From contig CAJWPI010000004.1 of assembly GCA_913045055.1 (NCBI GenBank), forward strand, positions 1-64,000: a stretch of 64,000 bases of DNA. The letters are read 5' to 3'. Below are positions 34,844-38,917 of the stretch, in pieces. The DNA is from an uncultured Gammaproteobacteria bacterium. Its GTDB lineage: Bacteria > Pseudomonadota > Gammaproteobacteria > Magnimaribacterales > Magnimaribacteraceae. Below the pieces are notes generated by a model that was not told the origin of the DNA, searched no databases, and saw nothing but the letters and a program-made list of their open reading frames with translations. The translations under genes and the position numbers were made by a program. How positions within the stretch are numbered: position 1 is the first letter of the stretch; each line of letters starts with the position of its first letter.

Positions 34844-36283
34844 CTATTTGCGTAACATTTTCCAATCTCCCCTTATAGCAAAAGTTCTTCCTGGATCTAT
34901 CTGTAAATTTACAAACAAAATACTGTTATCAGGAGAAAAACAAGCACCTGCAAACTCTGAACTTGACCCAGGGTTATTAGCTAACTTATAGACGGTTCCA
35001 TCAGGTCTTATTCCTAAAATTCTATTAGAACTAGATACAGAATAATTATCTTCACAAACGATTAAATCTCCCCAAGGAGATACTGTTAAATTATCTCCCA
35101 TAAAAAACTCTTCTTTACTTCTTGATTCATAAAAGAGCTCAATGTACCCAGGAGTAGATTGCTCATTTTTCTTTCCTTCAAGCTGGCTGGGAGAATATTT
35201 CCATATTTGACCCAACCTGTTATAACCACCTTCTGTACATATAAAATAAATTCCATCTGTTGCTACTGTAATGCCCTCACCTCTTACAAATTGAGTAGCT
35301 CCTAGTTCATTAAACCCATGTTCCCGTAGTTTGTAGTTTTTAGCTTCGTAATCTTCAATGTTTACCCATTCAACTTCATATCTAATCCCTTCTCTGATTT
35401 CTGATGAAGAATTTTGGGTATTAAACTTCTCCTTATTTTTAATCTTTAAGGCTTGAAGTTTTCCTGAAAACTTAGAATTTTGGGGAATAAATCTGTAAAA
35501 AAGCCCCAGTCGATCATCTTCTGTTTGGTAGATGATATTGTTTCTAGGATCTACAGCAATTGCTTCTCTTTTAAATCTTCCTAGGTTTCTTAAAGGCTCA
35601 GGTGAACTCAAACCATCATTTAAAGGATCGACTTCAAAGGCATATCCATGATCTTTTTCTACTCTTAGATCAAATTTATTAGCCTGCTCTTCAGAAAGCA
35701 TTCCCCACTCTACATATCTTGTTAGATCTATCTTGTCAAAAGCTCTATTTTCATTCTCTTCACAGCTTATCCAAGTATTCCATGGGGTTGAGCCACCTGC
35801 ACAATTCCACTGCGTACCAAGAAGGCTGTAAAATTCTCTCTTCTTTTCAAGGCTTTTAGCATCAAGAATAATTGTTGATGTACCTCCTGCTAGCCTTAAA
35901 TCAGAGTCTACAAAGCCATCATATGCTTGCTCTCTAGGAACATCTTTTAGTTTAGCTGAGTTAGGAATGAAAGGAGTCATCTCTGCTAAAATTTCATGAT
36001 TCCTAATTAAAGCAATATCACCATTCGGTATGCTAAAAGCGGCCATTCCATCTGGTCTTTCGGGAACTTTGAATCCTCCTTCCATATCCTGACCAGTTTC
36101 AGAAATCATAGAATATGTAAATCCCGGGGGAAGATCTAATATCCCCTTGGGGTCAGGTATTAAATCATTTGAAACTTTTTTTCTAGAAGATGAACAACCT
36201 AATGAGCTTGTAAGTCCAGCAAAAGCAATGCTTGTCATTCCCATCTGAAAAAGGAACCTTCTTCTGGTAATTAAATTATTCAT
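34844..36283 (-). CDS. Tat-exported DUF839 (PhoX-like) protein
   Basis: 479 residues. TRRRFLFQMGMTSIAFAGL is a twin-arginine signal, followed by LGCSSS, so the product may be a Tat-exported lipoprotein. The DUF839 propeller motifs are present: GTQWNCAGGSTPWNTWISCEEN, FKREAIAVDPRNNIIYQTEDD, GEGITVATDGIYFICTEGG and GDNLTVSPWGDLIVCED. PhoX proteins are calcium/iron alkaline phosphatases important in marine phosphate scavenging, but the family also holds non-PhoX members, and I cannot confirm the full metal site. Confidence 0.85.
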   Translation of the reverse strand: MNNLITRRRFLFQMGMTSIAFAGLTSSLGCSSSRKKVSNDLIPDPKGILDLPPGFTYSMISETGQDMEGGFKVPERPDGMAAFSIPNGDIALIRNHEILAEMTPFIPNSAKLKDVPREQAYDGFVDSDLRLAGGTSTIILDAKSLEKKREFYSLLGTQWNCAGGSTPWNTWISCEENENRAFDKIDLTRYVEWGMLSEEQANKFDLRVEKDHGYAFEVDPLNDGLSSPEPLRNLGRFKREAIAVDPRNNIIYQTEDDRLGLFYRFIPQNSKFSGKLQALKIKNKEKFNTQNSSSEIREGIRYEVEWVNIEDYEAKNYKLREHGFNELGATQFVRGEGITVATDGIYFICTEGGYNRLGQIWKYSPSQLEGKKNEQSTPGYIELFYESRSKEEFFMGDNLTVSPWGDLIVCEDNYSVSSSNRILGIRPDGTVYKLANNPGSSSEFAGACFSPDNSILFVNLQIDPGRTFAIRGDWKMLRK

Positions 36284-36360
36284 TGGGTATCAATAAAACT
36301 AAGTACATTTTAATTCTTTACTGATCAAGAAGTTAACTCTTTTTGATTTTCTCTTTAGAA

Positions 36361-36390
36361 AAAACAAAAAAGCCCTGCTTTCACAGGGCT
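36361..36390 (-). terminator. Intrinsic terminator closing the intergenic RNA unit
   Basis: On the minus strand AGCCCTG-TGAAAG-CAGGGCT forms a perfect seven-base GC-rich stem with a six-base loop, followed directly by TTTTTGTTTT. It lies 78 bases before the DUF839 start codon, so it would stop minus-strand transcription before that gene. Confidence 0.85.
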
Positions 36391-36405
36391 CTTTTGAGAA
36401 GAGTA

Positions 36406-36427
36406 TCTCAACTACTTCTCAACTACT
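36406..36427. repeat. Tandem direct repeat of 11 bases
   Basis: TCTCAACTACT occurs twice in immediate tandem inside the candidate RNA unit, just upstream (minus sense) of its terminator. Only two copies are present. Confidence 0.8.
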
Positions 36428-36636
36428 GAATATAATCTTGATCAGCAGTCGGAATCGGGTTTACCCCGTGTCAGAAGGTAACTCCTGTCATTCCTGCTAA
36501 TAAATAAATACTAATTTGGATCACCTCCTTTCAAGGGTAAAGGCCAACCCAACTATTGATCCCCCTCTTTTAAATCAACGTGGGACATGAGCCATCAGAA
36601 TATCAACTTTTGTGGAACACCCCAAGTAATATTTAT

Positions 36637-36673
36637 AAAAAAAAGAGCAGGGAATCACCAAGATTTCCTACTC
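36637..36673 (-). terminator. Intrinsic terminator of the TonB receptor gene
   Basis: Stem of twelve positions (36645-36656 with 36662-36673, one C-A mismatch and one G-U pair) with a five-base loop, followed on the minus strand by eight consecutive T. It lies 19 bases after the receptor stop codon. Confidence 0.85.
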
Positions 36674-36691
36674 TCTTTTAAAAAGAATTAT

Positions 36692-38917
36692 CTACTGAAA
36701 ATAATAGTTAATGCTAGCAGTAACTAATCTAGGCTGCCCTAAGGTTCCTATAATTATGTTATCACCGGCATCATCTAATAGATAAAGATTAGAAAGATAT
36801 TGCACATCGACGTAGTAATCTTCATCTGTGATATTTTCAACATTAACCATAAACTCCCAGTTATCTCTAGATAAGCCCATTTGTAGGCCGGCTATAGTAA
36901 AGCTAGGATTCGTTACGCCATCCCAAGCCTGAAGCCCTTCAAACTTCCCGTTATGACTTATCTGAAAATCAAAGATAAAATTGGATCCATTTGCTAAAGG
37001 ACGTAAATAGCTAGTAGAAAATGTTGCACCATTGTCAGGCACTACAGGTGGAGTTTTTCCACTTAAGTCAACACCAGCTAAAGTAGTTCCACCATCCCAT
37101 TCTGCTTCTATAAACCCTGCTGAGGCTGAGACAGTTAAGTAGTCTGAAGTTTTAACAGATATTTCAAACTCCATACCATACTGTTCGGAATCACCAGCAT
37201 TTAAAATACCTTCAATTATTCCAGCTCCTCCAGGATCAGGTGCTTGGAATTCAATTTGACGTTCATCATAGTCAATCATAAAGGCCGCAAAAGAAGCGCT
37301 AGCTCTTCCATCCATAAGTCTGCCTTTCCAACCAAACTCATACTGAACAGCTTCTTCCCCTTCGAAACCCCATAGTGAAGATGTACCAGCAAAATTAGCT
37401 AAGTTATAGCCCCCTGGTTCATATCCCATAGAGCCAGTGAAATAGATTATAGAACCATCTGGACGATTTTTAGTTAAGGAGATTCTTGGTAAAAACTCAG
37501 TATCACCTTGAGATCCTGATAATCCTGAATCAAGGTTGTCGGTATTATTTTCCCACTTATCAATCCTACCTCCTAAACCTAACTCCCAGTCATTATCCAT
37601 ATCGTAGGTAATGTTAACAAAAGCAGCTTGATGGGTTTTTTCTCTATTTCTCATCTCAAAAGGTAGTCTAAGAGTGTCTTGTTCCTCTGCTAATGTTGGA
37701 ACTAGACCAGCCCAAACACCTCCACAAGCTGGACTTCCAATAGCACAACCCAAGGGTCCGCTAATGTTACCTGCTGCGTCTACTCTGGCATCCCACCATA
37801 TTTGTTCTGATCTCATCTCTTCATCAAAAGTTGAGAAGTACAATCCGGCTATCCATTGAAGTCTGTCGTCATCAGTTGAAGTAAAGGTAATTTCTGAAGT
37901 AGTTACCTCCATACTTTCTGGACGGATTAAATCCAAGATAAATTCGGGCATCAAATCTACGTCAGTGTATCTAGCACTAAAAGTATCAGTATATGAAGTT
38001 CTAGCAGTGACGTCGTATCCATCATTTTCCCATACCAATTCTAAAGTATAAGAATCCGTTTCTCTATCATGCCAAGAGTTTATACCTCCTTGAAATATCG
38101 CTGGATATTTTAGAGGTTTCCTTTTTTCTCTAGTCCACTGATTTACAGGACCAAAATACTCATTAAATCTGTAAGCAAAATAAACTTGAGCATTACCCAC
38201 AGGTCCAGCTAAAGATAAACGATGTCCACTCTGGTCATACGCTATGGCATTAGGATCTTGATCTCCTGTACCTCCATTAAGTCTTGGGGTATTAGGATTA
38301 GTCATATAACCGTCATCCTGGCGGTCAAAACCAAAAATACGCATAGCCCATCCATTTTCTCCCATAGGAAGGTTAGCGCTTATCTCTGTATCAGTTATCC
38401 CTTGTTCACCTGCTAAGAACTTTATTCTGCCCGTGGATTCATCAGGGCTAGGCCTAACGCTAACATACTTAACAGCTCCACCTATGTTACTACCTCCGTA
38501 AAGAACACCCTGAGGTCCTTTAAGTACCTCTATCCTTTGGAGATCTCCAAAGCGAGCTGATGCATCACCAAAAATTTGGACATCATCTAAGTAAAAACCC
38601 ACACCTTGTGTATTTCCAAAGGAACCTAAACCTCTTACTGATACATTAGGAAAACCATCAGCCCTCATAGAAAGGTTAAGGTTTGGTATAAGGAATCCTA
38701 CATCTTCTAAACCTTTGATATTCTGTCTATCAATATCCGTTGAAGAAATAGCAGTTATAGACTCAGGAATATCTAAAAGACTTTCTTCCCTTTTACGAGC
38801 AGTAACCAGAATTTCTTCTACAGTTGCTGACTGTCCCTCGTCAGCTGAAAAAATAAAAGGACTTGTTAAAGCAGCAATAAGAAAAGAAGCAAAAAAGTAA
38901 TTAACTTTAAATCTCAT
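36692..38917 (-). CDS. TonB-dependent outer-membrane receptor
   Basis: 741 residues. A signal peptide (ends near FIFSADEG) is followed by the TonB box VEEILVTARKREESL, the plug domain (IPESITAISSTDIDRQNIKGLEDVGFLIPNL, VSVRGLGS, RIEVLKGPQGVLYGGSNIGGAVKYVS), a 22-strand barrel, and a terminal strand ending in the aromatic YYFQ typical of BamA recognition. Plug sequences of this class are common in marine and sphingomonad receptors for sugars, terpenoids or aromatic compounds rather than siderophores. Its position next to the catabolic island suggests uptake of that island's substrate. Confidence 0.95.
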   Translation of the reverse strand: MRFKVNYFFASFLIAALTSPFIFSADEGQSATVEEILVTARKREESLLDIPESITAISSTDIDRQNIKGLEDVGFLIPNLNLSMRADGFPNVSVRGLGSFGNTQGVGFYLDDVQIFGDASARFGDLQRIEVLKGPQGVLYGGSNIGGAVKYVSVRPSPDESTGRIKFLAGEQGITDTEISANLPMGENGWAMRIFGFDRQDDGYMTNPNTPRLNGGTGDQDPNAIAYDQSGHRLSLAGPVGNAQVYFAYRFNEYFGPVNQWTREKRKPLKYPAIFQGGINSWHDRETDSYTLELVWENDGYDVTARTSYTDTFSARYTDVDLMPEFILDLIRPESMEVTTSEITFTSTDDDRLQWIAGLYFSTFDEEMRSEQIWWDARVDAAGNISGPLGCAIGSPACGGVWAGLVPTLAEEQDTLRLPFEMRNREKTHQAAFVNITYDMDNDWELGLGGRIDKWENNTDNLDSGLSGSQGDTEFLPRISLTKNRPDGSIIYFTGSMGYEPGGYNLANFAGTSSLWGFEGEEAVQYEFGWKGRLMDGRASASFAAFMIDYDERQIEFQAPDPGGAGIIEGILNAGDSEQYGMEFEISVKTSDYLTVSASAGFIEAEWDGGTTLAGVDLSGKTPPVVPDNGATFSTSYLRPLANGSNFIFDFQISHNGKFEGLQAWDGVTNPSFTIAGLQMGLSRDNWEFMVNVENITDEDYYVDVQYLSNLYLLDDAGDNIIIGTLGQPRLVTASINYYFQ

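Follow-up and report, generated by a model that had tools for sequence, protein, structure and literature searches.

A structured RNA conserved in SAR86 bacteria that carries a selected 14-codon reading frame, a candidate ribosome-recruiting regulatory RNA

Background

Initiation at the AUU codon of infC is limited by IF3. SgrS and RNAIII are dual-function regulatory RNAs, and the preQ1-II and SAM-II riboswitches have an H-type pseudoknot near the Shine-Dalgarno sequence (SD). In leader-peptide attenuators, translation of a short open reading frame (ORF) and the fold of the RNA exclude each other. Extended SDs of Staphylococcus aureus sustain AUU and AUA starts (PMC13009471).

The RNA described here was found in a stretch of 64,000 nucleotides from an uncultured gammaproteobacterium of the SAR86 order (the window) and shares traits with each of these systems. 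Its AUU start and the proposed control by IF3 recall infC in the way of working, but the frame of 14 codons lies in a stand-alone RNA and follows a far stronger SD. Like SgrS and RNAIII it is a stand-alone RNA with a short ORF, here read from the sequence, whereas this ORF has just 14 codons, starts in SAR86 with a codon other than AUG and overlaps core helices. A pseudoknot adjoins the ribosome-binding site as in preQ1-II and SAM-II, yet the SAR86 RNA is not the leader of a gene. With the attenuators it has in common that short-ORF translation and fold would be mutually exclusive, but a regulated downstream gene is missing in most genomes. In the S. aureus genes, too, a weak start codon stands behind an extended SD; these are, however, ordinary mRNAs of another phylum.

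Results and discussion

An earlier note on this DNA had drawn attention to an intergenic gap of 408 bases (36284-36691) as the longest in the window, and had placed in it two minus-strand intrinsic terminators with a separate transcript between them. Measurement agreed, the next longest gap having 227 bases, and both terminators are present by sequence and fold (Table 1). The stretch between them folds far better than its shuffles (z -4.6, 0 of 200 shuffles as good). In all SAR86 families a -10-like box closely precedes the conserved 5' end and a terminator stands at the 3' end. Together with the occurrence once per genome across the order and the covarying structure presented below, the conserved promoter-like box and the own terminator argue for a separate RNA unit. 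The letters of the promoter proposed in the note, TTGGTG-17-TTATAA, exist (36656-36661 and 36633-36638), but their role as promoter is probably wrong, since the relatives keep TTGGGG-17-TATTCT instead; transcription would probably start near 36590 and not near 36625.

Table 1 Features of the RNA locus in the window and positions of the relatives outside SAR86
Feature	Position	Strand	Remarks
TonB receptor gene	36692-38917	minus	upstream flank of the gap
Upstream terminator	36637-36679	minus	closes the TonB-receptor transcript; -16.6 kcal/mol with an interrupted stem, then 8 U
-35-like box TTGGGG	36620-36625	minus	17 nt 5' of the -10 box; nearest relatives with similar TTGG
-10-like box TATTCT	36597-36602	minus	-10-like sequence at the same place in all families
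RNA, ~230 nt	36360-36590	minus	conserved core and terminator; both ends inferred
P1, 5' strand UGUC	36584-36587	minus	pairs with GACA 36469-36472; covaries across families, moderate support
Hairpin H1	36548-36584	minus	36574-36584 with 36548-36560; 8-bp core, 6 pairs changed on both sides
Pseudoknot, 5' strand GAGGG	36563-36567	minus	in the H1 loop; pairs with 36533-36537
Pseudoknot, 3' strand CCCUU	36533-36537	minus	directly before the SD
SD AAAGGAGGUGAUCC	36518-36531	minus	complementary to the 16S rRNA 3' end; just behind the pseudoknot
14-codon ORF AUU...UGA	36471-36515	minus	ISIYLLAGMTGVTF (residue 1 Met if AUU initiates); no stops, constant length in relatives
P3, 5' strand GGAAU (codons 8-9)	36490-36494	minus	pairs with 36451-36455; one pair changed on both sides, rest invariant
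Hairpin H4 CAGGAG/CUUCUG	36472-36487	minus	inside the ORF; fully paired, invariant in f1
P1, 3' strand GACA	36469-36472	minus	overlaps the stop codon
Hairpin H5	36456-36468	minus	just 3' of the stop codon; RNAalifold and pair count; pairs well, hardly varies
P3, 3' strand AUUCC	36451-36455	minus	pair count
Hairpin H6 (f1, f3)	36421-36450	minus	4 pairs changed on both sides in f1
Hairpin H7 (f1, f3)	36396-36420	minus	conserved loop AGUUGAGAUAC; 6 pairs changed on both sides in f1
Own terminator of the RNA	36359-36396	minus	14-bp stem, -21.5 kcal/mol, U-run; also detected by the terminator scan
Gene labelled DUF839 in the earlier note	34844-36283	minus	downstream flank of the gap
Relatives outside SAR86	L105:1557, L288:1541, L298:1549, L324:1547; L289, L323	minus for L289, L323	AUG-initiated

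The genes next to the RNA differ among the SAR86 families f1 to f4. At every f3 locus and most f1 loci examined, the gene that follows lies on the opposite strand, which argues against a mere leader; the window, f2 and f4 have a co-directional gene there. In the latter two families (L041, L048 and relatives) a permease-like gene of ~290 amino acids, EamA-like by eye, lies co-directionally 3' of the RNA, and may there be controlled by read-through.

In most members of the same family a DNA search with the gap revealed one strong homologue per genome, the kind of conservation in close relatives whose absence would have refuted the note; many genomes of the order gave weaker ones, and the conserved core spans ~36387-36587. 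A covariance search of related genomes, as proposed in the note, was run with a model of this core and detected the RNA in 140 of the 203 SAR86-order genomes and in 21 of 22 genera, essentially as a single copy, with no convincing additional copies within the same genome. Among high-quality genomes it was present in 35 of 40, and the model did not detect it in five. A DNA-pattern scan of ~85,000 species genomes yielded at least 118 matching stretches; among the matches listed (80), all titles were SAR86 or Gammaproteobacteria. Those Gammaproteobacteria-titled matches that were re-scanned with the covariance model carried the RNA except L192 (isolate EAC86), which had no covariance-model hit and was dismissed as a chance match of the pattern.

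Within the SAR86 set GGAGGUGRUC was invariant. The SD pairs over ~11-14 bp with the 3' end of the SAR86 16S rRNA (GGCUGGAUCACCUCCUUA), the R position keeping the pairing as A-U or G-U, and the duplex of -26.6 kcal/mol is the best 16S complementarity in the window. At 12-14 nt from the first G of the SD stands AUU, in some lineages AUC, and never AUG in SAR86. Read by eye, the infC gene of SAR86 itself appears to begin with AUA, AUU or AUG, differing between lineages (L278-L284). The note had seen no convincing protein gene in the gap and missed the 14-codon ORF, which is under selection to stay open; conserved behind a near-perfect SD, it indicates that the RNA is not purely non-coding. All 77 distinct sequences, a set that includes the chance match L192 and derives partly from a fixed-length pattern, were open, with UGA after exactly 14 codons or, in one case of in-frame loss, after 13; loci derived from the covariance model gave the same picture. 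The ORF ends with UGAC. Column shuffling of the 77 ORFs predicted ~30 in-frame stops and none was seen, among 21 diverged representatives 9.7 were predicted and again none was seen, and in the two other frames the stop counts were as expected. Single-base differences in the spacer between SD and AUU leave the ORF length unchanged, which places the beginning of the selected frame at the AUU or 3' of it. Within SAR86 only the residues I1, S/N2, I3, G8 and G11 are conserved, with A/T13 and F14 to a lesser degree.

The structure was derived from RNAalifold predictions for each family and from counting pairs in family f1. In A1, 53 cells were changed on both sides compared to 12.9 after shuffling, and 19 pairs covaried compared to 8.6; the signal was lost when partners were slid. 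The predicted hairpins H1, H6 and H7 are supported by this covariation. For P1 the observed mean across families exceeded all 500 shuffles, with the variants GUGUC/GACAC, UUGUC/GACAA, UAGUC/GACUA and CGUC/GACG; the invariant GUC/GAC core limits the support to moderate. The loop of H1 and the strand just 5' of the SD form an H-type pseudoknot. Its AGGG/CCCU core is nearly invariant, so a shuffle of the free helix is barely informative and the A1 column test was used: the first pair occurred six times as AU, six times as GC and three times as GU. Across families the variants CAGGG/CCCUG, GAGGG/CCCUC, AAGGG/CCCUU and CAGAGA/UCUCUG were observed. P3 and H4 are barely tested by covariation, since they are nearly invariant. 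In the minimum-energy fold the SD is paired to the last part of the ORF, an arrangement that inspection by eye did not find maintained in f4 and that hence was counted as an alternative conformer only.

Outside SAR86, L105, another gammaproteobacterium, gave a weak covariance-model hit with the same layout as the SAR86 RNA. A search with L105 led to L288 and L289, then to L298, and then to L323 and L324. All six members have CAGGG/CCCUG, GGAGGUGRU and an AUG 12 nt from the first G, and terminator-like hairpins with U-runs lie downstream; in L105, which has the stop codon UAA, the equivalent of P1 is GGCGUU/AACGCC. Five members encode exactly 14 residues of the kind MSNxCIxGASGGTC (MSNDSMCAASGATC, MSNECINGASGGTC, MSNRCIIGAPGGTC, MSNRCMYRTSGGTC and MSNGCINGASEGAC), and L298 encodes MSNGCIEVLTG (11 residues). 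These members share with the SAR86 RNA the length of 14 codons, G8 and the SGG end, a pseudoknot and a helix at the stop codon, so that common ancestry is likely; layout joins them more than sequence score. The AUG of these homologues makes AUU/AUC look derived in SAR86. Comparison of the outside members to plasmids, phages, E. coli and IMG/VR gave no match. Of the other weak covariance-model hits beyond the order, most (L106-L116, L285 and L286) were rejected because they either had no SD/ORF layout or were antisense to 16S.

Known families did not account for the RNA. Searching the window and the relatives against Rfam 15 at the gathering threshold returned tRNAs only, in the window solely a tRNA-Ser (GGA) at 506-595 on the minus strand, and at a relaxed threshold no Rfam match of L105, L288, L289 or L298 attained gathering. 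The best sub-threshold match was to CC2171 (RF01867), an sRNA of Caulobacter, with 21.1 bits for the window and 25.6 bits for L298 compared to a gathering score of 75. CC2171 has in common with it GAAAGGAGGUGAUCCA, a similarly spaced start-like GUG UCU and a terminator, but the match does not reach the pseudoknot; the resemblance may reflect kinship or convergence. In the RF01867 consensus a near-perfect SD is followed at start-codon distance by GUG UCU CAU UGU, and CC2171 may itself encode a short peptide. A diverged 6S RNA was rejected, as the RF00013 match lies elsewhere (G000:C1:4921-5102), and a tmRNA likewise, ARAGORN finding only the tRNA-Ser in the window. Neither RNA nor peptide appeared in any report found by a literature search that covered few of the subscription journals.

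The sequence comparisons leave hardly any doubt that the RNA is conserved and structured and that its ORF is under selection. The best overall explanation, to which we assign a probability of roughly 0.55, is a stand-alone regulatory RNA of ~230 nt that recruits ribosomes and represents an undescribed family with patchy occurrence in other Gammaproteobacteria. The RNA would be transcribed, and its SD would strongly recruit 30S subunits. Initiation at AUU or AUC would be inefficient and IF3-sensitive, as in infC. The ORF ends within the helices P1, P3 and H4, and a ribosome translating the 14 codons would open them and remodel the 3' half; thereby the RNA would be switched by initiation capacity. 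The output could be base-pairing by the 3' half or the loading of 30S subunits. Such a switching mechanism is put forward tentatively. More speculative is an extension to a new ribosome-sensing class of stand-alone RNAs with a pseudoknot, in which the anti-16S stretch captures the 30S subunit and the 14-codon frame, with AUU/AUC in SAR86, acts as the switch that unlocks the stop-codon helix; this class would be old in Gammaproteobacteria and elsewhere would use AUG and a conserved peptide. We consider it rather unlikely in this full form.

The main rival is a micro-mRNA, with the 14-residue peptide as product and a fold that merely regulates or stabilises. The conservation of the peptide outside SAR86 (MSNxCIxGASGGTC) speaks for it, as do the nearly fixed I3, G8 and G11 in SAR86 and a codon 11 that varies mainly at the third base. 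In SAR86, however, most residues drift, variation is spread almost evenly over the three codon positions (mean entropies of 0.76, 0.90 and 0.76), most lineages have lost both cysteines, and AUU/AUC takes the place of AUG; we judge a micro-mRNA to be a serious though rather unlikely alternative. Near-perfect complementarity to 16S rRNA, the best in the window, would equally suit a decoy or hibernation RNA that holds 30S subunits by its anti-16S stretch and carries the ORF incidentally, but this improbable reading leaves the strong selection against stop codons unexplained. The order of pseudoknot, ribosome-binding site and terminator, with a co-directional gene beyond it in some families, resembles a riboswitch or attenuator acting on the gene that follows. 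Opposite-strand genes at most f1 and all f3 loci examined and the change of neighbours among families refute this as a general role, and we regard it as very improbable. Least credible is a CsrA sponge similar to CsrB or RsmZ, suggested by GGA motifs in the SD, in CAGGAA and in CAGGAG: most GGAs lie within the SD or predicted stems, and CsrA, which turned up in nearly every f1 genome and each f3 genome searched, was not found in any searched genome of f2 or f4, several of which carry the RNA, which refutes the sponge as a general role.

Conclusions

SAR86 is among the most abundant uncultured clades of the surface ocean and has small genomes; a structured RNA that is present in most of these genomes, yet not in Rfam, is a clear gap. 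The combination of a near-maximal ribosome-binding site, a start codon disfavoured by IF3 and a selected frame within a folded RNA makes the proposed translation-gated switching directly testable in a laboratory host. The relatives that start with AUG provide a natural comparison for the weakening of a start codon.
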